A DNA stretch of 20,434 nt from a virus: positions 1 through 20,434 of the IMG/VR virus record IMGVR_UViG_3300010354_013359. One strand, given 5' to 3'. The translations under genes were made by a program, and so were the position numbers. Below the pieces are notes generated by a model, which saw nothing but the letters and a program-made list of their open reading frames with translations, was not told the origin of the DNA and made no database searches. Position 1 is the stretch's first letter; the number at the start of each line of letters is the position of its first letter. Shown here piece after piece: positions 14-18,936 of the stretch.

Positions 14-1117
14 ATGAAGTTACTGGTAAACGATAAAGAACTAGCGTATTTCTTAATGTCTTTAATTGATATTAAAGATCATTGCAAACATATTCAAATT
101 AACGAATCAAATGATTCACATGCCGCAGGAGCCATTGGTTATATTCTTAATAAACAAAGTTCTCCTAAATTTGAATTGTCAAAATTTAAGCAAAAGTTTA
201 AAGATAAGTTATATTCAGGAGTAGCTGCCGATGTCAACGAATGGCGGAAAAATGTTGAAGCTGTTATTAAAGAAGTTAAAAATGTTAGGCAAAAAAAGTT
301 ACAACTGAATGCATCAAAGATAATAGATGCACTCGGTGAAGACGTTGTAATAGAAAAATATCTTCAAAGTAGAAATCAACATTTTATCAAAACTGTTGGA
401 TTACAGTTAAATCCTAACGCGATAATGGTGAGAAGGCAAAAGTTTAATAATCCTAGTGAAGATTGTCTATTAAGAAACACAACAGGTAATGAAAATATTT
501 TAGTTGATAAGATCGATCAAAAATATCCTTTTTGGTTTATAGACAGCGGATACACTAATTTTATTGAACCAAACAAAAAATGGCACAGATTAGTTAGAAA
601 TCATCTGCATTTCAATCATACATTCGATGCTCCTTCCGATAGATTAATTAACTTTACATCTTTCCCCGTACCATGGAAAAAAGAAGGGAAAAAGATTTTA
701 GTTGTTGAACCGGGACCGTTTGCGGCTTCTATCTTTCATGTGAATCCACAGGTATGGCGAGAGACTATTACAACTGAAATTAAAAAATATACAGATAGGC
801 CAATAGAGTTTAGAGAAAAAACCAACAAAAAAACTAGGACAAGTTTATATAAACAACTATTAGATGGAGATTACTATTGTTCTATTAGTATTAATTCAAA
901 TAGCGCAGTAGAATCTGTATGGGCAGGTGTCCCGGCTATTACTCTAGATAAACATGTAAGCAATCCCGTTACTAGGAATTCTATTTCACAAATTAATGAT
1001 TTATATTATGGTCCTCTTGGAAACTGGTTAAGTTGGTTAAGTTATTGTCAATTTACATACGACGAACTTTTAAATGGTACTGCGATATCAATCGTAAGAG
1101 ATTATCATAATGTCTAA
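14..1117 (+). CDS. GT-B-like glycosyltransferase family protein, paralog A (long N-terminus)
   Basis: This 367-residue protein is the largest of four related proteins in the window. Its C-terminal half (about 225-367) carries the shared signature: a YTDRP element (259-263), a NSNSAVESVWAGVP segment (294-307), and a WLSYCQFTYDELLNG tail (341-355). The Ser-rich, VEA-like, GxP pattern resembles the donor-binding region of GT-B enzymes of the CDP-glycerol glycerophosphotransferase/KpsC-KpsS kind. The usual HP of that family is replaced here by REKTNKK, so the donor site may be altered. The first roughly 220 residues are Lys-rich and I do not recognise them; they may bind the acceptor. No signal peptide or membrane segment is visible, so it should act in the cytoplasm. 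It overlaps the next gene by 8 bases. The ATG lies 13 bases into the window, so its upstream signals are not seen. The specific substrate is unknown. Confidence 0.6.
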   Translation: MKLLVNDKELAYFLMSLIDIKDHCKHIQINESNDSHAAGAIGYILNKQSSPKFELSKFKQKFKDKLYSGVAADVNEWRKNVEAVIKEVKNVRQKKLQLNASKIIDALGEDVVIEKYLQSRNQHFIKTVGLQLNPNAIMVRRQKFNNPSEDCLLRNTTGNENILVDKIDQKYPFWFIDSGYTNFIEPNKKWHRLVRNHLHFNHTFDAPSDRLINFTSFPVPWKKEGKKILVVEPGPFAASIFHVNPQVWRETITTEIKKYTDRPIEFREKTNKKTRTSLYKQLLDGDYYCSISINSNSAVESVWAGVPAITLDKHVSNPVTRNSISQINDLYYGPLGNWLSWLSYCQFTYDELLNGTAISIVRDYHNV

Positions 1118-2033
1118 ACTTACAGCGGTAGCCTATTACGCCGGTATCCCCCCAAACAATAGTAATCTAGAAAAACCAAAAATTTTAGATTATTTTTGTC
1201 AGGGTGTACTATCTTGCGGTGATAATGCTATTGCACACAAGGGATTTGATGCATTAGATTGCGATGTAGCTTTAATTCAAGGATTCGTTCATGATAACGG
1301 AAAAAACTTGCCTCACCTCAAACTGAGAAGAGATGCTATTGAATTGCAGAAAAAAAATAATAAAAAATCATTAATAGTTGATAGTAGTTTGTTTTTATAT
1401 GTGAATAAAAATAATCCTTTGCATTACCTAAGGTATAGTTTTGACGGAGTTTTTCCTACTACTGGATATTATTTTGACAAAAATATCAACAGCGAAAGAT
1501 GGAAACAAATTAGTAATGATCTAAATATAACTTTAAAACAATATAGACAAACAGGCAATCATATTTTAATTTGTTTACAAAGAAATGGCGGATGGAGCAT
1601 GGGTGGATTAGATGTCATTAAATGGATGAATTTGACTGTACAAAAAATAAGACAATACTCGGATAGGCCCATTGTTATCCGCTCGCATCCTGGAGATAAA
1701 AAAACTAAAAATTTGTTACAGGCAAAATTTAAAAATGTCACAATTAGTCAAAAAGAATCTTTATCAGAAGATTTAAAAAATTGCTGGGCTTCGGTTGTTT
1801 ACAATAGCAGTCCGAGTGTAGCAAGCTTAATAGAAGGAGTTCCAACTTTTGTTACAGATCCAATACCTCAACATAGTCAAAGTTTTGAAATGTGTAATCT
1901 TGATCTAGCTAATCTTGAAAATCCAATCTTAGCAGATAGACAAGAATGGATAGAAAAATTGTCTATGTGCCATTGGAAATTTGATGAATTACAGTCTGGA
2001 AAAGCATGGGATTTTTTTAGAGGTCATCTATGA
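1110..2033 (+). CDS. GT-B-like glycosyltransferase family protein, paralog B
   Basis: This 307-residue paralog keeps the most canonical motifs of the four: YSDRP (183-187), RSHPGDKK (191-198, the basic HP element expected in CDP-glycerol glycerophosphotransferase/capsule-transferase folds), YNSSPSVASLIEGVP (231-245) and the tail MCHWKFDELQSGKAW (286-300). The N-terminal half (1-150) would be the acceptor-side Rossmann-like domain and contains a VALIQGF strand. It is probably a cytoplasmic sugar or polyol-phosphate transferase for a surface glycan; donor and acceptor are unknown. It starts inside the end of paralog A and ends in an ATGA overlap with a methyltransferase, suggesting coupled translation of transferase and methylase. 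The family call rests on motif pattern only. Confidence 0.62.
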   Translation: MSKLTAVAYYAGIPPNNSNLEKPKILDYFCQGVLSCGDNAIAHKGFDALDCDVALIQGFVHDNGKNLPHLKLRRDAIELQKKNNKKSLIVDSSLFLYVNKNNPLHYLRYSFDGVFPTTGYYFDKNINSERWKQISNDLNITLKQYRQTGNHILICLQRNGGWSMGGLDVIKWMNLTVQKIRQYSDRPIVIRSHPGDKKTKNLLQAKFKNVTISQKESLSEDLKNCWASVVYNSSPSVASLIEGVPTFVTDPIPQHSQSFEMCNLDLANLENPILADRQEWIEKLSMCHWKFDELQSGKAWDFFRGHL

Positions 2034-2624: not shown

Positions 2625-3341
2625 ATGAAAAAATTAACAATAGGTTGGTATGTTCCGGACGATGATCAAAGAGTCACTTTTCTTCTAGCAAAAGATACTC
2701 AAATGTCTAGACCCAAATACGAAGAAAAATATAGAGAGATTATTGTCAGGCAGTTACCTAATAAAAGAACTTTTGTAGATGTCGGTGCAAATGTAGGAAT
2801 TTGGTCATTACCGATGTTTAAATATTTTAAAAATGTCGTTCCTTATGAGCCGTCAAAGCAAAATATAGAGTGTTTAAAACTTAACATACCTCCCAGCATA
2901 AAAATTAGAGAACTAGCTGTAGCAGACTTTAACGGAGAAGCTGATTTTCATCAAGCCGGCAAAAATTGTGGGGATGGAAAATTAGTTGGAGACCTTCCTA
3001 TACCGTCGTCTTATAAAGTGCCGGTTGTAAAATTAGATGACGAAAACTTATCTAATGTAGATATGGTTAAAATAGATACACAAGGTTGGGAATTACAAGT
3101 TTTAAAAGGTATGACCGGAATTTTAAAAAATCAGCGTCCTTGGGTAATGATAGAAATCAATGAGGAAGTAGATATTTGCTGTAAGCTTATGGAGAAATAT
3201 GATTACGAAATGGTTTATGTTAAAAGCAAACGTAATCTACTGTGGGCCCCCAAGACGGGTCATAACAGTCCGTTAGATAAATCAATTCTCAAAAGGTATT
3301 TAGGGCCTGGTCCATACGCTCCTAGGTATGCTCCTGGTTGA
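2625..3341 (+). CDS. FkbM family methyltransferase, copy 1
   Basis: This is a 238-residue SAM-dependent O-methyltransferase of the FkbM type. Visible motifs are VDVGANVGIW (51-60), YEPS (74-77), VKIDTQGWELQVLKG (148-162; family consensus IKIDVEGxE) and VMIEINEE after RPW. FkbM enzymes methylate hydroxyls on sugars and polyketides; a sugar is the likely target given the glycosyltransferases around it. The GQ-rich variant TQGWE replaces the usual VEGxE, so one acidic residue of the motif is a Gln. The C-terminus ends in an odd Pro/Gly/Tyr-rich tail (PGPYAPRYAPG, 228-238). It is the last + gene before a convergent minus-strand block and overlaps the end of that block by 20 bases. Confidence 0.82.
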   Translation: MKKLTIGWYVPDDDQRVTFLLAKDTQMSRPKYEEKYREIIVRQLPNKRTFVDVGANVGIWSLPMFKYFKNVVPYEPSKQNIECLKLNIPPSIKIRELAVADFNGEADFHQAGKNCGDGKLVGDLPIPSSYKVPVVKLDDENLSNVDMVKIDTQGWELQVLKGMTGILKNQRPWVMIEINEEVDICCKLMEKYDYEMVYVKSKRNLLWAPKTGHNSPLDKSILKRYLGPGPYAPRYAPG

Positions 3342-4107
3342 TTACATCCCATGCATACCCAGACAGTAATTCAGCTCTAGTAAATTGACAATAGGACAGA
3401 TGTTTCATCCAAGCCTGTTTAAGATCTTGGTCTGCAACTGATAAAATTTCAATATCTTTGATTGTTTTTTTGTAAAGACTTCTTGTTGCCGAATGTCCTA
3501 ATGGTATTACTGGAATATCGCAGATTGCAGCCTCCACGAGAGAATTAGATGAATACCCAATTACACAATAGGTATTGTTTCTTATAAAATCTTTAAAGGT
3601 GTTAGACGTTGTTCTTTCTCCTCTAGATTCTGGCCTGTACCTAACTCTAATATTTCTATCTGTAAATTGTTTAACTTGTTGAACAACGGTATTAATCCAA
3701 TCATCTACGGATCCCAAATCTAAAGTATGACAAATTTTTCTATCTGGCGGAACTATTACAATATCCGAGCCTCTCTTAAAAGATTCGTTGTTAAGATTAA
3801 GAATTTCTAGCCTATCATTTGGCCTATCTATGATGTCGTTAGTATTCTGAAAATTGTTTACACTTAATCTAAAGTAGTTTTTCTTTTTTTGATTTCCAAA
3901 GTATGCTCCGTCAAAATTATAAAATTTTAAATGATGCTTTCTGCAAATCTCCAGCCATTGAGGTTTAAAAAAACTAGGCCAGCACATTGGATATTTGGTA
4001 TTTTCGTACATTTCTGCTCTAGTAAGAAAATAACCACCACTTCCTAGGGTGAATTCGTATGCCCCGTAATCTGTGCCTTGTTCTGTTACAAAATTAATTA
4101 TTTTCAT
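3322..4107 (-). CDS. GT-B-like glycosyltransferase family protein, paralog C
   Basis: This 261-residue member of the same family lies on the minus strand. It shows FTDRN (148-152), a basic RYRPESRGER stretch where paralogs B and D have HP, GYSSNSLVEAAICDIPVI (184-201) and the tail LSYCQFTRAELLSGYAW (237-253). The tail is almost identical in pattern to that of paralog A, which argues for common descent. I chose the ATG at 4107 because it forms an ATGA overlap with the upstream gene; a TTG at 4116 would add three residues. It is the third gene of a minus-strand unit whose likely promoter lies near 5358-5365. It is probably a cytoplasmic transferase with unknown substrate. Confidence 0.6.
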   Translation of the reverse strand: MKIINFVTEQGTDYGAYEFTLGSGGYFLTRAEMYENTKYPMCWPSFFKPQWLEICRKHHLKFYNFDGAYFGNQKKKNYFRLSVNNFQNTNDIIDRPNDRLEILNLNNESFKRGSDIVIVPPDRKICHTLDLGSVDDWINTVVQQVKQFTDRNIRVRYRPESRGERTTSNTFKDFIRNNTYCVIGYSSNSLVEAAICDIPVIPLGHSATRSLYKKTIKDIEILSVADQDLKQAWMKHLSYCQFTRAELLSGYAWDVINQEHT

Positions 4108-4940
4108 TTGAGCCAATATGCTTCTTTTCTTAAAATTCTTAAATCTTCTTTTTTACTTCTACCTAATTTCTTTCTACCGCCCTTTAAATGGTCTAGATAA
4201 GCGCCCCAGTCACTATTAATTAAAGGATGACCCTCCCCGGGACTCATTCCACCCTTCGGCCTAAGGTCATTTAATTTAGCCGCCCAATCATTTTGTTTCA
4301 TATTTGGAAATTTTATTCTTACAGCATCAAAAACAAAACTGTCGTGCCATTCTTGTAAGGTAAAAATGCCGTTCTCAGCATCGTCGTAGTAATGTTGAAA
4401 TTCTTTTAGAAAGTTTTGAACAGTACTTGATCTTAAATTGAGAGAATATAAACCGCATTCGCTATATTTGCCTTTTCTACCCAAATAACATAGTTCTGAA
4501 TCAGGCGGAATTAATCTTGTTATTTCAGATAAACTTATAGGACTGTGGCAAACAGTATCGGCATCCATCCAAATTAAAATATCGGCGTCTGTTTTCTTAG
4601 CGCAATCAAAAATGGCATAAACTTTATGTGCAAATCTTATAGCATGCCATTTAAATCCTTTACCGGAGTCTTTTCTTTTGGATCTGATAGGATCATTACT
4701 TACATCTCCGTTAGCTTTAGGCACATCTTTCCACTTTTGTTTGAAGATTTGAAGATCTTGCACTTCTTCTAACCTATTCAATGTTATTCTTGAATGATCT
4801 TTAATTTGTGGATTACAATTTTCTGGATATAGATGAAGTACGACCTCCTTAGGCCAAGATTCTATGTAAGAATTAATCATTCGTTGAGCATAATTTTGCA
4901 AACCGTCTCCGTTGAATGTGGTTACAACTGCATATTTCAT
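4104..4940 (-). CDS. GT-A-like glycosyltransferase with DxD motif
   Basis: This 278-residue protein begins MKYAVVTTFNGDG, a typical first strand of a nucleotide-sugar-binding GT-A fold. It contains ADILIWMDADTV (119-130), whose DAD is the expected metal/nucleotide-sugar DxD motif. Later elements are ECGLYSLNL (161-169), EWHDSFVFD (197-205) and a basic tail with HLKGGRKK (251-258); a late His and basic residues often close the donor site in such enzymes. It should transfer a sugar from a nucleotide donor in the cytoplasm. I prefer the ATG at 4940 (ATGA overlap with the upstream gene) to one five residues earlier at 4955. It lies between a small Rossmann protein and GT-B paralog C on the minus strand. 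Sugar specificity is unknown. Confidence 0.7.
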   Translation of the reverse strand: MKYAVVTTFNGDGLQNYAQRMINSYIESWPKEVVLHLYPENCNPQIKDHSRITLNRLEEVQDLQIFKQKWKDVPKANGDVSNDPIRSKRKDSGKGFKWHAIRFAHKVYAIFDCAKKTDADILIWMDADTVCHSPISLSEITRLIPPDSELCYLGRKGKYSECGLYSLNLRSSTVQNFLKEFQHYYDDAENGIFTLQEWHDSFVFDAVRIKFPNMKQNDWAAKLNDLRPKGGMSPGEGHPLINSDWGAYLDHLKGGRKKLGRSKKEDLRILRKEAYWLK

Positions 4941-5376: not shown

Positions 5377-6210
5377 ATGAACTTTAAATTGTACAAAAAC
5401 TTTGGAGCTTTGAATAGCGGTCCTGTATTTGCTGCTATAGAACAAGGTTTATTATCGTTAGGTCATAAAATTGTGGATCAAGATGAGGATATTAGTGTTA
5501 TTTGGTCTGTTTTATGGCACGGTAGGATGGCATCTAACAAACTCATCTACGAATCAAACAAACAACATAATAAAAAAACTTTGATAATTGAAGTTGGTAA
5601 CTTTTTTCGTGGTAAAACTTGGAGACTTTCGATGAATCACATAGATGCTACTGGCATATATGGATTTAATAAAGACCTCGATAGAAATAGACCTGCAAAG
5701 TTAGGCCTAAGATTAAACGATTTAAATTTAAAAAGGCGATCCGAAATTTTGTTAGCCTGCCAGCATGAAAAAAGTTTACAATGGCAGGGTCTACCCTCCA
5801 CATCAGAATGGGTTAATCAGATGATCGCCGATATAAGGCGGTACTCGGATAGAAAAATTTATGTAAGACCGCATCCAAGATGTCCGTTGAGGGGTAATAT
5901 AATAGGTGGTACGTTAATAGCGCCTAGACAAATTCAAGGTACTTACGATGATTTTGACTTTGATACAAATTACCATTGTGTAATCAATCACAATAGTGGT
6001 CCTTGCATACAGGCAGCAATTAAGGGAACTCCTGTTATTTGCAACAGAACAAGTTTAGCATACCCAGTAAGCGATTTATTGGAAAATATTGACAAAATAA
6101 ATCTTGGAGACAGAATCGAATGGCTGATTAAGCTTTCTCATACCGAATGGACTGTTAGTGAGTTGGGGACTGGCCAGCCTCTCCAAAGAATACTTAATGA
6201 AATAACTTGA
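5377..6210 (+). CDS. GT-B-like glycosyltransferase family protein, paralog D
   Basis: This is the fourth member of the local family, 277 residues long. It has YSDRK (156-160), RPHPRCP (164-170, the HP element), HNSGPCIQAAIKGTPVI (205-221) and the tail LSHTEWTVSELGTG (253-266). The N-terminus (1-75) has an alternating strand/helix pattern with VIWSVLWHG and TLIIEVGNF, as in the first Rossmann domain of GT-B proteins. It is a likely cytoplasmic transferase acting on a surface glycan. It is divergent from the minus-strand unit; I see no convincing promoter or ribosome-binding site for it in the 41-base gap. Its stop codon lies inside the -35 element of the next gene's promoter. Confidence 0.6.
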   Translation: MNFKLYKNFGALNSGPVFAAIEQGLLSLGHKIVDQDEDISVIWSVLWHGRMASNKLIYESNKQHNKKTLIIEVGNFFRGKTWRLSMNHIDATGIYGFNKDLDRNRPAKLGLRLNDLNLKRRSEILLACQHEKSLQWQGLPSTSEWVNQMIADIRRYSDRKIYVRPHPRCPLRGNIIGGTLIAPRQIQGTYDDFDFDTNYHCVINHNSGPCIQAAIKGTPVICNRTSLAYPVSDLLENIDKINLGDRIEWLIKLSHTEWTVSELGTGQPLQRILNEIT

Positions 6211-7435: not shown

Positions 7436-8876
7436 ACTAACAATAAAAGACGAAGTCAATATTAAATTCGACGGACTAGCAGTTGAAACTAGACGTAAAA
7501 TTGTTAATAAATTAAAGTTTGACCTGCCTTATGCTCGTCATATGCCTGCCTATAAATTAGGACGCTGGGACGGTACTAAAACCTATTTTGGTATAGGTGG
7601 AACCGGATACCTAGCACACCTAGAGGTAATATTACCTATCATTGAAGATGCTGGATACGAGATCGAGATCGAGGATCACAGGTTACACAACGAAATAAAG
7701 TTTGATCAGGTTGACGAAAATTATTGGTCCAGCAAAGGTAAGACGTGGCCCAAGGGTCATCCCGAAGCAGGTAATCCTATTGTACTTAGAGATTATCAAT
7801 ATGATGTTGTTAACAAATTTTTATCTAACACGCAGGCCTTACAGGAGGTGGCTACCGGTGCAGGTAAAACGATTACTACAGCAACACTTAGCCACATTTG
7901 CGAGAAATATGGCCGTACGATGGTTATTGTTCCAAATAAATCACTTGTCGTACAAACCGAAGAAGATTACAAAAACTTAGGACTCGATGTCGGTGTGTAC
8001 TTTGGCGATCGTAAAGAATTAAATCGCACACATACTATCTGTACTTGGCAAAGTTTAAACGTATTAGATAAGAAAAGTTATGACGAAGATACATTAACCT
8101 TGGCAGAATTCTGTGAAGGTGTGTGTGCCGTAATTGTTGATGAAGTCCATCAAGCTAAAGCAGACGTACTGACAAAACTGCTTACACAAAACTTCAAGAA
8201 CTGTGCTATACGTTGGGGACTTACAGGAACTATTCCTAAAGAGCAATGGGAATTTCAAGGCATCCTTGCTAGCATTGGTCCCGTAATCAACCGTGTAAGT
8301 GCTCACGACCTACAACAAAAAGATGTGTTAGCACAATTAGATATTCAAATTCTTCAAACTACAGACGTAAAAGAATTTAGATCTTATCAAGACGAATATG
8401 CCTATCTTGTTACAGATGATACAAGAATAGAATGGTTGGCTAAAAATATAAAAAATATCTCTCAAAGCGGCAATACATTAGTATTAGTTGGCCGAATAGA
8501 CACTGGAGACAAATTAGTAAAACTGTTACCAGATTGTGTATTCATTAGCGGTGCGGTTAAACTTACAGACAGAAAAGAAGAATATGACGAAATTAAAACT
8601 AGTGATAATAAGATTATTGTGGCGACTTATGGTGTGGCCGCTGTGGGTATTAATATTCCTAGGATTTTTAATTTGGTTCTTTTGGAGCCCGGAAAAAGCT
8701 TTGTCCGAGTTATACAAAGTATTGGGCGAGGCATTAGAAAAGCAGAAGACAAGGACTTCGTACAGATCTGGGACATTACGTCCACCTGCAAGTATGCCAA
8801 GAGACATTTAACAGAGCGTAAAAAATATTATAAGGAAGCAAAATATCCTTTTACAGTGACAAAGGTAGCGGTATGA
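7422..8876 (+). CDS. uvsW: UvsW-type ATP-dependent SF2 helicase
   Basis: This 484-residue protein matches T4 UvsW in length and motif order. Helicase motifs are RDYQYD (123-128, Q-like region), Walker A ATGAGKT (144-150), TWQS (208-211), DEVH (240-243), GLTGT (266-270), ATYGVAAVGI (401-410) and QSIGRGIRK (432-440, motif VI). The N-terminal 100 residues contain the RWDGTKTYF segment equivalent to the YGNWDGRIRL region of T4 UvsW. UvsW unwinds R-loops and branched recombination or fork intermediates and helps switch phage replication from origin-dependent to recombination-dependent. The start is TTG with a GAGGAT ribosome-binding site. It ends in an ATGA overlap with an FkbM methyltransferase, so it is expressed as part of the same polycistronic unit. 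Confidence 0.93.
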   Translation: MPLCKLTIKDEVNIKFDGLAVETRRKIVNKLKFDLPYARHMPAYKLGRWDGTKTYFGIGGTGYLAHLEVILPIIEDAGYEIEIEDHRLHNEIKFDQVDENYWSSKGKTWPKGHPEAGNPIVLRDYQYDVVNKFLSNTQALQEVATGAGKTITTATLSHICEKYGRTMVIVPNKSLVVQTEEDYKNLGLDVGVYFGDRKELNRTHTICTWQSLNVLDKKSYDEDTLTLAEFCEGVCAVIVDEVHQAKADVLTKLLTQNFKNCAIRWGLTGTIPKEQWEFQGILASIGPVINRVSAHDLQQKDVLAQLDIQILQTTDVKEFRSYQDEYAYLVTDDTRIEWLAKNIKNISQSGNTLVLVGRIDTGDKLVKLLPDCVFISGAVKLTDRKEEYDEIKTSDNKIIVATYGVAAVGINIPRIFNLVLLEPGKSFVRVIQSIGRGIRKAEDKDFVQIWDITSTCKYAKRHLTERKKYYKEAKYPFTVTKVAV

Positions 8877-15952: not shown

Positions 15953-16143
15953 TGCAACAAAGGAAACTACAAACGGGAGAACTTGTTACTGAATTATCTA
16001 ATCCAGTAACATTGAAAGTTTATACTAAGTGCCCGGAGAAATGGATGTTAATAGATTTAGAAACAGGCGAACGATACGTGGGTTATAGTACAGAAGGCAA
16101 AAATGATTGGCGAAAGGTGAATACATGCCGGACATTGACATAG
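15952..16143 (+). CDS. small uncharacterised protein
   Basis: This is a 63-residue protein with KVYTKCPEKWMLIDLETGERYVG (23-45), the pattern of a small beta-sheet domain, followed by a YSTEGKNDWRKV tail. Its role is not known to me. It starts on the last base of the preceding stop (TAATG) and its end overlaps the start of the DnaE-like gene by 19 bases, as expected in a compact phage operon. Similar tiny proteins with a CPEKW-like segment seem to occur in marine T4-like phages, from memory only. Confidence 0.55.
   Translation: MQQRKLQTGELVTELSNPVTLKVYTKCPEKWMLIDLETGERYVGYSTEGKNDWRKVNTCRTLT
16113..16120 (+). promoter_or_regulatory. ribosome-binding site deciding the DnaE-like start
   Basis: AAAGGTGA lies four bases before the ATG at 16125, inside the previous gene. 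It supports that ATG over a TTG at 16107 for the DnaE-like protein. Confidence 0.6.
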
Positions 16144-16703
16144 ATTTTACAGATAGAGATAAGGCATTAGAATTTTTTAACTATGTATCGGCTAGTCGTA
16201 CAGACAACGGTAAACTAGTTAGGCACAACACAGGGATCTACTTCCACGAGGTTCCGGTTTATGCTCCAACTAATACCTGCGCGATACCTTACGAAGAGGC
16301 AGAAGAAAAAGGATTTTTTAAATTAGATTTTCTCAATGTTGGAATTTACAAAGGTGTTCGTAATGAGGATCACCTTAACGAACTACTAAACAAGGAACCA
16401 ATATGGGATTTACTAGAACAGGACGATTTCGTCAACTTGCTCTTTCACGTCAACGGACATGGTGGCATCTTAAGACAAATGAAGCCAAGAAGCATAGAAC
16501 AACTGGCAGCAGTATTAGCTATGATTCGTCCTGCAAAAAGGTACCTTATTGGAAAAAATTGGACAACTGTAATGAGTGAAGTTTGGATGAAACCTAAGGG
16601 CGATGAGTATTACTTTAAGAAATCGCATGCCACAGCTTATGCCGCTGCTGTAGTCGTCCAAATGAATTTAATTTGCGAAGAATTAAGCTACGGTTATTCT
16701 TAA
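16125..16703 (+). CDS. miniature DNA polymerase III alpha (DnaE)-like protein
   Basis: This 192-residue protein is built of DnaE palm and fingers pieces in the right order. MPDIDIDFTDRDKAL (1-15) matches the PDxDxDF segment with two catalytic aspartates, RHNTG...VYAPTN (33-50) matches the HAGG...VIAPT region, EKGFFKLDFLN (61-71) matches KxDFLG with the third catalytic aspartate, MKPRSIEQLAAVLAMIRPAK (119-138) matches LKP..FEDL.A..ALYRPGP, and FKKSHATAYA (164-173) matches FNKSHSAAYA. The PHP domain, the upstream GRGS palm segment and the C-terminal tau/OB regions are absent, as is about 100 residues between the PDxDxDF and HAGG-like parts. It may be an accessory or regulatory DnaE derivative rather than a processive polymerase. 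It ends tail-to-tail with the minus-strand gene, the two stop codons sharing bases. Confidence 0.75.
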   Translation: MPDIDIDFTDRDKALEFFNYVSASRTDNGKLVRHNTGIYFHEVPVYAPTNTCAIPYEEAEEKGFFKLDFLNVGIYKGVRNEDHLNELLNKEPIWDLLEQDDFVNLLFHVNGHGGILRQMKPRSIEQLAAVLAMIRPAKRYLIGKNWTTVMSEVWMKPKGDEYYFKKSHATAYAAAVVVQMNLICEELSYGYS

Positions 16704-17068
16704 ATTTTTCTAACTAAAGTAATAGATTTTCTTTTAACACGTTTAACAATCATGTCGTTCAAACTAGTAACTGGTCCAAACATTACCTGAACGTCCTTAG
16801 TGTTAAAATTGCGTATAGCGTATCTAAAGTTGATAATTTCCTGATTTAGGAAGATGTTTATAGGAATTTGACGATTAGATTCCCACCACCAAATTTCGCC
16901 TAATTCTATAAATTTTGCTTTTTCTTCGTTGGTCTTAATTAATGAATAATCATACATACTGGTTATTTGATGATCTTGATTAATAATAATACCAACGTAT
17001 TCTTGATTTACATGGTGTATAACAGTAACGAATGGAAAATTTTCTTGTAAATTTGTTGTAATTCTCAT
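16700..17068 (-). CDS. uncharacterised phage protein, isolated on minus strand
   Basis: This 122-residue protein opens MRITTNLQENFPFV, contains beta-rich YVGIIINQDHQITSMYDYSLI, then a helix-strand region IELGEIWWWESNRQIPINIF (56-75) with three tryptophans, and RNFNTKDVQVMFGPVTSLNDM. The WWWESNR and MFGPVTSL segments resemble an uncharacterised family I associate from memory with T4-like marine phages. No function is inferred. It is convergent with the DnaE-like gene and divergent from the BppU-like gene. I see no confident promoter for it in the 29-base gap; the late-type element there reads the other way. Confidence 0.6.
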   Translation of the reverse strand: MRITTNLQENFPFVTVIHHVNQEYVGIIINQDHQITSMYDYSLIKTNEEKAKFIELGEIWWWESNRQIPINIFLNQEIINFRYAIRNFNTKDVQVMFGPVTSLNDMIVKRVKRKSITLVRKI

Positions 17069-17097: not shown

Positions 17098-17907
17098 ATG
17101 CAAGAATTTTCATTTTATTTATATCCAAATAATATAGATGTATTTACTAATCTGGATACCTGGGACGGCATGAGGTATAAAAAAGTGTATAATCCTAACT
17201 TAAAAGTATATGGCGGTGTCGATAACAAGATAAAAATTCAGGTCCGTAACGTAGATCAAAAACCAGTAAACCTTACTGGTTATGCTACGGTATTTACTTT
17301 GGTAAGCAGAGATAAGCAAAAAATTGTCTTAGAAAAGGACTGCGAATCTTATGACATTACACAGGGTGCATTGTATCTTACGATAACCAGAGAGGAGTTA
17401 TTATCGATAGAAAAGGGATTGTATACTTACAGTCTTCGTAGAGAAGTTAGATCCGCAGTTGACAATGATGAGTATCTTGTAACATCTAGTTTTCCTTTAT
17501 ATGTAGACAGTCAGTACGGTGCAATGGGTGTTATAGAAATTGATGATAATATCAAGGGGAATTTAAATGCAACGTCTGTTACTAAAGAGTGGACAAAAAA
17601 GCTAGTTTACAACACTCCTTCCGGTAACGACGATTATTTCATAAGCGGACTAGTAGATGCTAGACCGCAATTTAATACGCCTCAAACTTTACATAGCTTT
17701 CAGGTTTACATGACCAATTATACCGGCGAATTTGAAATCCAAGGTAGTCTTAGCGAAGGCGGGAATCCAGGGACATGGGTAACCATCTCAAACACCAGTT
17801 ATACAGAAAAGACCATAGATTTAATTAACATAACTGGAAAGTGGAATTTTTTTAGATTCAAATATTCGCCCGAAACAGGAACTGTTGACAAAGTCTTATA
17901 TAGATAA
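17098..17907 (+). CDS. BppU-like baseplate or virion structural protein
   Basis: The 269-residue protein begins with an N-terminal domain (about 35-155) of the BppU type: VYGGVDNKIKIQVRNVDQKP (37-56), VNLTGYATVFTL, and GLYTYSLRREV, the immunoglobulin-like fold seen in phage baseplate upper proteins. A second beta-rich domain follows (165-269) with FISGLVDARPQF, SFQVYMTNYTGEFEIQGS and TGKWNFFRFKYSP, resembling a discoidin/lectin-like or Ig-like repeat. It may act in the virion at the baseplate, tail fibre or other receptor-facing part. Late promoter GATAAATA upstream supports late structural expression. Its end overlaps the primase promoter. The precise virion position is not known. Confidence 0.68.
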   Translation: MQEFSFYLYPNNIDVFTNLDTWDGMRYKKVYNPNLKVYGGVDNKIKIQVRNVDQKPVNLTGYATVFTLVSRDKQKIVLEKDCESYDITQGALYLTITREELLSIEKGLYTYSLRREVRSAVDNDEYLVTSSFPLYVDSQYGAMGVIEIDDNIKGNLNATSVTKEWTKKLVYNTPSGNDDYFISGLVDARPQFNTPQTLHSFQVYMTNYTGEFEIQGSLSEGGNPGTWVTISNTSYTEKTIDLINITGKWNFFRFKYSPETGTVDKVLYR

Positions 17908-17919: not shown

Positions 17920-18936
17920 ATGACTCTCGTCTTAGACAAGTTTAGATCCCTCCTGCCCAAAACAAAGACTAGCCCCAGTGGTTGGCTAAGTTTTAATGCG
18001 CCCTGTTGTCAACACAGAGGGCACGGTGCCGATACCAGAAAACGTGCAGGAGTTATATTTACAGATGGTGTTGTCTATAATTGTTTCAACTGTAAATTTA
18101 CCGCAAGTTGGCAACCTGGTAGGAATATTAATGACAAATTCAAAACACTTTGTTTATGGCTAGGTGCTAACCAAGACGACATAAAACAGTTAGTGTTTGA
18201 GGCATTAAAGACTGAAAGTATTGAATATCAATCAGAACAATACATTGCTAAAGTAGCATTTGAAGATAAAGAATTACCAAACGGTGCTATGCATATTGCG
18301 GAATGGGCAAAAGTGATACAAGGTGACCTTGAAAAGGATTACACCAACGTACTGAGCTATCTTATTAATAGGGGATATCAAAATCCATTAGAGCATGATT
18401 TTTATTGGTCACCTATAGCAGGATATATCGATAGAGTAATTATACCATTTAGATACGACGGAAGAATAGTTGGTAATACTGCTCGCAAGATTGGAGAAGG
18501 TAAGCCCAAATATCTCTCAGATCAACATCCGCAATTTGTATTCAATACGGATGCGCAAAATGAACTTAGTAGGTATATATTTGTAGTAGAAGGACCTTTT
18601 GATGCTCTGGCCATTGGAGGGGTAGCACTACTAACTAACGACATAACAGACCAACAGGCGCGAATTATCGATAGTCTTAACAAGGAAATAATTGTAGTTC
18701 CAGATCAAGACAAAGCAGGAATAAATCTTATCAATAGCGCCTTACACTACAACTGGTCCGTAGCGTTTCCTACTTGGGAAGTTAACGTAAAAGATTGTTC
18801 AGATGCTGTTTTAAAATACGGAAAACTATTTACTATGGTTGATATTATTAAAACAGCAGTCAAGGGAGAAATTAAAATTAACATGGCTAAAAAGAAACTT
18901 GAACAGTCAATCAAATTAAGGAGTTATGATGTTTAA
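17920..18936 (+). CDS. gp61-type DNA primase
   Basis: At 338 residues the protein matches T4 gp61 (342). The N-terminal zinc ribbon is APCCQHRG (27-34) plus YNCFNCKF (53-60), with C29/C30, H32, C55 and C58 as candidate ligands. The Toprim core has VEGPFDAL (223-230, catalytic E), VVPDQDKAG (259-267, DxD-like) and a later KDCSDAV (291-297). Primase makes short RNA primers for the lagging strand and works with the gp41 helicase. The start follows the sigma70-like promoter by six bases. Translation then passes to a 38-residue ORF by an out-of-frame overlap of eight bases. Confidence 0.9.
   Translation: MTLVLDKFRSLLPKTKTSPSGWLSFNAPCCQHRGHGADTRKRAGVIFTDGVVYNCFNCKFTASWQPGRNINDKFKTLCLWLGANQDDIKQLVFEALKTESIEYQSEQYIAKVAFEDKELPNGAMHIAEWAKVIQGDLEKDYTNVLSYLINRGYQNPLEHDFYWSPIAGYIDRVIIPFRYDGRIVGNTARKIGEGKPKYLSDQHPQFVFNTDAQNELSRYIFVVEGPFDALAIGGVALLTNDITDQQARIIDSLNKEIIVVPDQDKAGINLINSALHYNWSVAFPTWEVNVKDCSDAVLKYGKLFTMVDIIKTAVKGEIKINMAKKKLEQSIKLRSYDV
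18918..18923 (+). promoter_or_regulatory. ribosome-binding site for the 38-residue gene
   Basis: AAGGAG lies five bases before the ATG at 18929 inside the end of primase. It is one of the best ribosome-binding sites in the window and argues that the tiny frame is real. Confidence 0.65.

Follow-up and report, generated by a model that had tools for sequence, protein, structure and literature searches.

A minimal DnaE encoded by two genes

We analyzed a 20,434-nucleotide stretch of viral DNA (IMG/VR record IMGVR_UViG_3300010354_013359, positions 1 to 20,434; hereafter the window), focusing on the open reading frame (ORF) at 16125–16703. Its 192-residue product corresponds to the C-terminal half (C half) of a minimal DnaE-type, family C DNA polymerase, and in related phages a distant gene of family phrog_11127 encodes the complementary N-terminal half (N half). 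Judging from sequence comparison and structure prediction, the two chains probably assemble into one active site, forming a small DNA polymerase that adds deoxynucleoside triphosphates (dNTPs) beside the family B replisome. The preliminary description of this DNA left open whether such a form had been studied; it had, since Iyer et al. 2021 (PMC7824862) describe, for 'group 2.2' jumbo phages, a phage-specific minimal Pol III alpha whose two proteins are encoded by genes far apart. The window protein is an additional member of this published split form. The points that are new beyond that study are the residue-level complementarity of the halves, the conservation of the steric gate and the occurrence of both halves in a phage of 141.6 kb.

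The gene is as follows.
16125–16703, plus strand: C-terminal half of a split minimal DnaE (phrog_11778), 192 residues; PHROG E = 3e-67, AlphaFold model and PDB alignments.

The ORF starts with ATG at 16125, downstream of an AAGGTG-like ribosome site, and ends with TAA at 16701–16703; the protein begins MPDIDIDF. In the PHROG profile search it falls into phrog_11778, 'DNA polymerase' (E = 3e-67), with a further match to phrog_405, the profile of full phage DnaE (E = 1.3e-8). NCBIfam TIGR00594 polc matches at E = 1.5e-5, and the Pfam search gives a faint fingers match and nothing else. These matches and the ORF coordinates agree with the initial account of a 192-residue DnaE-like product with its motifs in DnaE order, an arrangement far above chance expectation. 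Searching with the C half by tblastn retrieves 68 phage records, including RaK2-like phages, PA5oct, Atu_ph07, Phosso, XacN1 and SCTP-2, and at least 552 IMG/VR relatives are confirmed. From the C-half family, tblastn also reaches bacterial DnaE-type genes with E-values of 2e-7 to 3e-5. No mini form is among the matches listed from a scan of cellular genome contigs; at least 14 relatives there align over part of the query at 25–34% identity, and we take them to be ordinary DnaE-type genes. Promoter and terminator scans gave nothing exceeding chance. By these homologies, the product is related to DnaE and the gene is real and conserved.

Active-site residues of the C half

The residues were compared in an alignment of 46 C-half sequences (identity down to 36%) and in a second set of 53 IMG/VR sequences; the AlphaFold input alignments were built from IMG/VR sequences only. 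The Escherichia coli DnaE equivalents come from profile alignment (hhalign) together with motif positions. The motifs are as follows, all on the plus strand.
16128–16148: PDIDIDF, in which D3, D5 and D7 correspond to E. coli D401, D403 and D405; invariant in 46/46 and 53/53 sequences.
16221–16238: R33-H34-x-x-G37-I38, corresponding to DnaE KHAGGV (E. coli H511) by hhalign; H34 and G37 invariant.
16320–16337: K66-L-D68-F-L-N, corresponding to DnaE KFDFLG by hhalign, with D68 as the catalytic D555 and K66 as K553; K66 and D68 invariant.
16524–16538: I134-R135-P136-A-K138, corresponding to the DnaE fingers motif LFRPGP (R639); I134, R135, P136 and K138 invariant.
16614–16646: F164-KKSH168-ATAYA, corresponding to DnaE FNKSHSAAYA, with H168 as the proposed steric gate H760; H168 invariant in 46/46 and 53/53 sequences.

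The 46-sequence alignment contains 21 invariant columns, which include D3, D5, I6, D7, H34, G37, P44, K66, D68, R135, P136, K138, H168 and Y172. Every one of the 53 IMG/VR sequences keeps D3, D5, D7, H34, G37, K66, D68, R135, P136, K138 and H168. The first reading had all three palm aspartates retained, and this is borne out by D3, D5 and D68, which are invariant in both sets. D401, D403 and D555 are absolutely conserved across family C, and D405 is characteristic of the DnaE type, being Asn in PolC (PMC3919608); E. coli H760 is proposed to act as a steric gate against ribonucleotides (PMC8485763). Since D3, D5, D7, D68 and H168 are invariant and equal these literature-defined residues, both the metal ligands of the DnaE type and the gate for dNTPs are retained in the C half.

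Three observations concern individual family members. The most divergent C half found (IMGVR_UViG_3300029986_000380, 2977–3606) retains the DIDID, KxD and KKSHA motifs; it lies on a 51-kb contig in which the N half was not found. At Atu_ph07 8001–8567, the RefSeq coding sequence YP_009611739 begins 24 codons late, so that the PDIDIDF motif is left out. C-half-like genes in GAP32, CBB and others carry the label 'putative membrane protein'.

Predicted fold and missing DnaE parts

The AlphaFold model of the C half has a mean predicted local distance difference test (pLDDT) score of 92.1 and shows the palm and fingers of DnaE. Against the PDB, the best 13 alignments are all DnaE or PolC, with Z-scores from 9.9 to 6.1, and the next, unrelated row scores 3.6. 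The model spans residues 461–841 of Taq DnaE, 400–781 of E. coli DnaE (2hnh), 419–811 of Mycobacterium tuberculosis DnaE (5lew) and 970–1363 of PolC (9qrn). A fold comparison and a survey of homologs had been proposed as checks in the preliminary description; the predicted fold is that of DnaE, the palm aspartates do not vary across the aligned homologs, and the C half co-occurs with a family B polymerase in the searched records of 140 kb or more.

The spacing of the conserved residues locates the missing parts. D7 and H34 are 27 residues apart, compared with 106 between D405 and H511 in E. coli, so the thumb, which is inserted between PDxDxDF and HAGG, is missing. Similarly, R135 and H168 are separated by 33 residues compared with 121 between R639 and H760, and therefore much of the fingers is missing. 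The PHP domain, the GRGS part of the palm and the C-terminal domains are absent from this protein as originally noted, and the thumb joins that list. A loss of the GRGS nucleotide-binding palm segment finds no support, however; in related phages it is carried, invariant, by a separate gene, which supplies the missing N-terminal palm and is found together with the C half.

The partner gene and its complementarity to the C half

A search of the relatives' genomes with Pfam DNA_pol3_alpha gave a second small ORF that aligns to model positions ~19–97, whereas the mini-DnaE aligns only to ~97–114. This second ORF, of about 155–190 residues, belongs to phrog_11127 (PHROG E-values 2.5e-38 to 3e-85); PHROG labels both phrog_11778 and phrog_11127 simply 'DNA polymerase'. 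The N half ends with ...GRGSS.aSY.LyLiGvHkidSikY.L...EF, stopping where DnaE runs on into MPDxDxDF. In 47 N-half sequences, the GRGS residues G119, R120, G121 and S122 are invariant, as are G117, E148 and F149. The N-half model (pLDDT 84) aligns to residues 304–418 of M. tuberculosis DnaE (5lew), 275–397 of E. coli DnaE (2hnh) and 820–966 of PolC (9qrn). The ends of the N half thus abut the starts of the C half at 418/419, 397/400 and 966/970, respectively, with zero overlap. The N gene lies from 15 to more than 180 kb away from the C gene. A split intein joining the halves was considered and rejected, since neither protein has additional intein-length sequence.

Related break points are seen elsewhere. 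The N half matches close to the C-terminal end of phrog_13169 (463 residues) and phrog_7513 (461 residues), and the C half matches positions 225–257 of phrog_12219 (823 residues), which is consistent with phrog_12219 starting near PDxDxDF. From these match positions, other phages may have a bigger DnaE that is divided at this point. In Alicyclobacillus phage KKP_3916 (OQ846916.1, 4990–11604), the gene of a full-length DnaE is interrupted at three catalytic motifs, namely PD(x)DxDF, VKMDFLG (just behind it) and FNKSH (within it), and by eye the first two gaps contain ORFs resembling homing endonucleases. The first break lies a few residues from the split point of the jumbo phages, which suggests that mobile insertion at the PDxDxDF motif could have begun the split.

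Co-occurrence and selection

Of 21 C-half records searched, 17 are 140 kb or longer, and each of these has both a family B polymerase and the N half (E = 2e-20 or better); the remaining four, all fragments of 51–87 kb, have neither. These relatives fit the placement, made at the outset, of the window in a T4-like phage that would use a family B polymerase. When the phage listings are compared, the one listed C record lacking the N half is PP728206, which has 109 kb compared with about 350 kb in that phage's relatives; Slicko01 was compared only via its sister Slickus01, in which the N half is confirmed by profile. Phage RAS14 has the N half, and its C counterpart is not among the matches listed. 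In 22 IMG/VR relatives of the window, many of them short, the N half is seen in only three (G003, G004 and G010); in two with C and without N (G001 and G002), N would, going by gene order in the relatives, lie past the contig end. A family B polymerase is also present in G001, G003 and G004; within the window, which covers only 20 kb, it was not seen. Because Slickus01, with both halves, has a genome of only 141.6 kb, the split pair is not restricted to jumbo phages, and it is widespread, reaching hundreds of environmental contigs. The median ratio of nonsynonymous to synonymous substitution rates (dN/dS), a rough estimate from ungapped pairs of equal length, is 0.11 for C (58 pairs) and 0.13 for N (26 pairs); on these ratios, both genes are under purifying selection.

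Comparison with known polymerases

The split Pol III alpha of Iyer et al. 2021 (PMC7824862) and the protein studied here are of the same kind: each has a standalone C unit with the Mg2+-binding aspartates and lacks other Pol III domains, the present one being found in an IMG/VR phage fragment. Those authors note that the split enzyme coexists with a family B polymerase and suggest that the two work together in repair or strand synthesis. CBB_328 and Atu_ph07 gp316 had been reported before as a lone or truncated Pol III alpha, and those reports made no link to the C half. Atu_ph07 gp316 is the N half, and CBB_328 (172 residues) is taken to be one from its length and the match of CBB to the N half.

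Compared with bacterial DnaE (E. coli, Taq and M. tuberculosis), the catalytic triad, D405, K553, the RP motif, the steric gate and the palm fold are common, and GRGS resides in the partner. The phage pair consists of chains of about 155–190 and about 190 residues, whereas bacterial DnaE is a single chain of about 1160. Unlike the bacterial enzyme, the pair is without the PHP domain, the thumb, most of the fingers and the HhH, OB and tau-binding parts.

Proposed enzyme and alternatives

In the model we favor, the C half would supply the metal-binding and fingers part of a minimal family C polymerase and the distant phrog_11127 gene the GRGS nucleotide-binding part, so that the two chains would jointly form a palm with reduced fingers. 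Physical assembly, catalysis and biological role are what we infer beyond the homology, active-site conservation, predicted fold, complementarity, co-occurrence, purifying selection and synteny shown here. The pair perhaps extends primers from the adjacent gp61 primase or fills gaps; primer extension or hand-off is favored by the adjacency of the primase gene, and short gap filling by the lack of a thumb. The narrower proposal, that a two-chain, thumbless family C polymerase of about 350 residues is dedicated to either task beside the family B replicase, is tentative and on balance doubtful. If true, no natural DnaE-type polymerase would be smaller, and the pair would parallel, on the phage side, the part that Bacillus DnaE plays in primer hand-off. 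Halves that are active together would define a minimal catalytic core for the bacterial replicase and offer a simple system of two chains in which to ask what parts of DnaE serve catalysis, fidelity and DNA grip. They would also account for the bacterial-type polymerase that T4-like jumbo phages retain in addition to their family B enzyme.

Several points weigh against a two-chain polymerase. The window covers only 20 kb, and this phage's own N half was not seen within it. Neither chain has a thumb, a PHP domain or a clamp- or tau-binding part, and PHP (PF02811) was found neither in the C half nor in any of the 11 isolate genomes searched. A thumbless two-chain palm may grip DNA poorly, which makes DNA polymerase activity uncertain. 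The Foldseek E-values of the models are weak on their own (best 2e-3), and our literature search found neither experimental follow-up nor biochemical data on the split enzyme.

The alternative closest to these points is that the assembled halves bind nucleotide and metal yet act as a nucleotidyltransferase or nucleoside triphosphate sensor, with another substrate or a regulatory role at the replisome, instead of as a template-directed polymerase. The loss of the thumb and much of the fingers (27 compared with 106 and 33 compared with 121 residues) and the full family B polymerase already in each genome would suit such a function. However, the equivalents of H760 and K553 and the triad are all invariant, as a dNTP-adding polymerase would need, and we consider this alternative unlikely. 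It is also rather improbable that a further phage subunit, a DnaQ-like exonuclease or another protein, adds the missing thumb or exonuclease to give a larger, multi-chain Pol III-like core. A DnaQ-like exonuclease (PF00929) does occur in 8/11 isolate genomes, near the C half in several, but Phosso, Slickus01 and SCTP-2 gave no match and the IMG/VR relatives no clear one; a fixed DnaQ partner is therefore rejected, and a third DnaE piece was not found.

The remaining alternatives concern the C half by itself. Its small size and likeness to the host alpha subunit could indicate that it regulates or decoys host Pol III, for example by titrating host tau, epsilon or clamp. In DnaE, the clamp and tau sites lie in the C-terminal part and epsilon binds PHP; the C half is without these regions, its invariant residues are the catalytic ones and it occurs together with a complementary half, which makes such a role very improbable. 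That it is a decaying remnant of an acquired DnaE, as its missing large domains might imply, is scarcely credible given hundreds of relatives, conserved synteny, a dN/dS of ~0.11 and the absence of stops from the copies examined. Catalytic invariance, selection, synteny and the co-occurring N half thus lead us to reject the decoy, remnant and lone-fragment readings. Among the roles first offered for the ORF, that of a reduced polymerase gains from the invariant catalytic residues and predicted fold, whereas that of a regulatory or decoy fragment loses ground because the complementary half co-occurs.

Gene neighborhood

The genes following the C half in the window are as follows.
16700–17068, minus strand: convergent neighbor phrog_11637, of unknown function (PHROG); its stop codon overlaps the stop of the polymerase gene.
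17098–17907, plus strand: virion-protein-like neighbor phrog_14467 (PHROG), in the same place in RaK2, PA5oct, Atu_ph07 and Phosso.
17920–18936, plus strand: gp61-like DNA primase (phrog_47; Toprim_2), from profile searches.

phrog_11637 directly adjoins the C half in 115 loci, lies further downstream on the same strand in eight and is not detected in three distant phage loci. With loci of full-size DnaE excluded from the primase and GroES-like counts, all 70 phage loci with sufficient flank have the gp61-like primase downstream of the C half, and a GroES-like gene is downstream of the N half in 74/76 loci. The gp44 clamp-loader gene is usually near the N half and comes after it in several annotated genomes.

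Lastly, four ORFs elsewhere in the window, at 14–1117 (plus), 1110–2033 (plus), 3322–4116 (minus) and 5377–6210 (plus), appear to be diverged copies of one family. They have common endings such as LSYCQFTxxELLxGxAW, the three searched have no Pfam match, and the family sits amid many methyltransferase and sugar-modifying genes.
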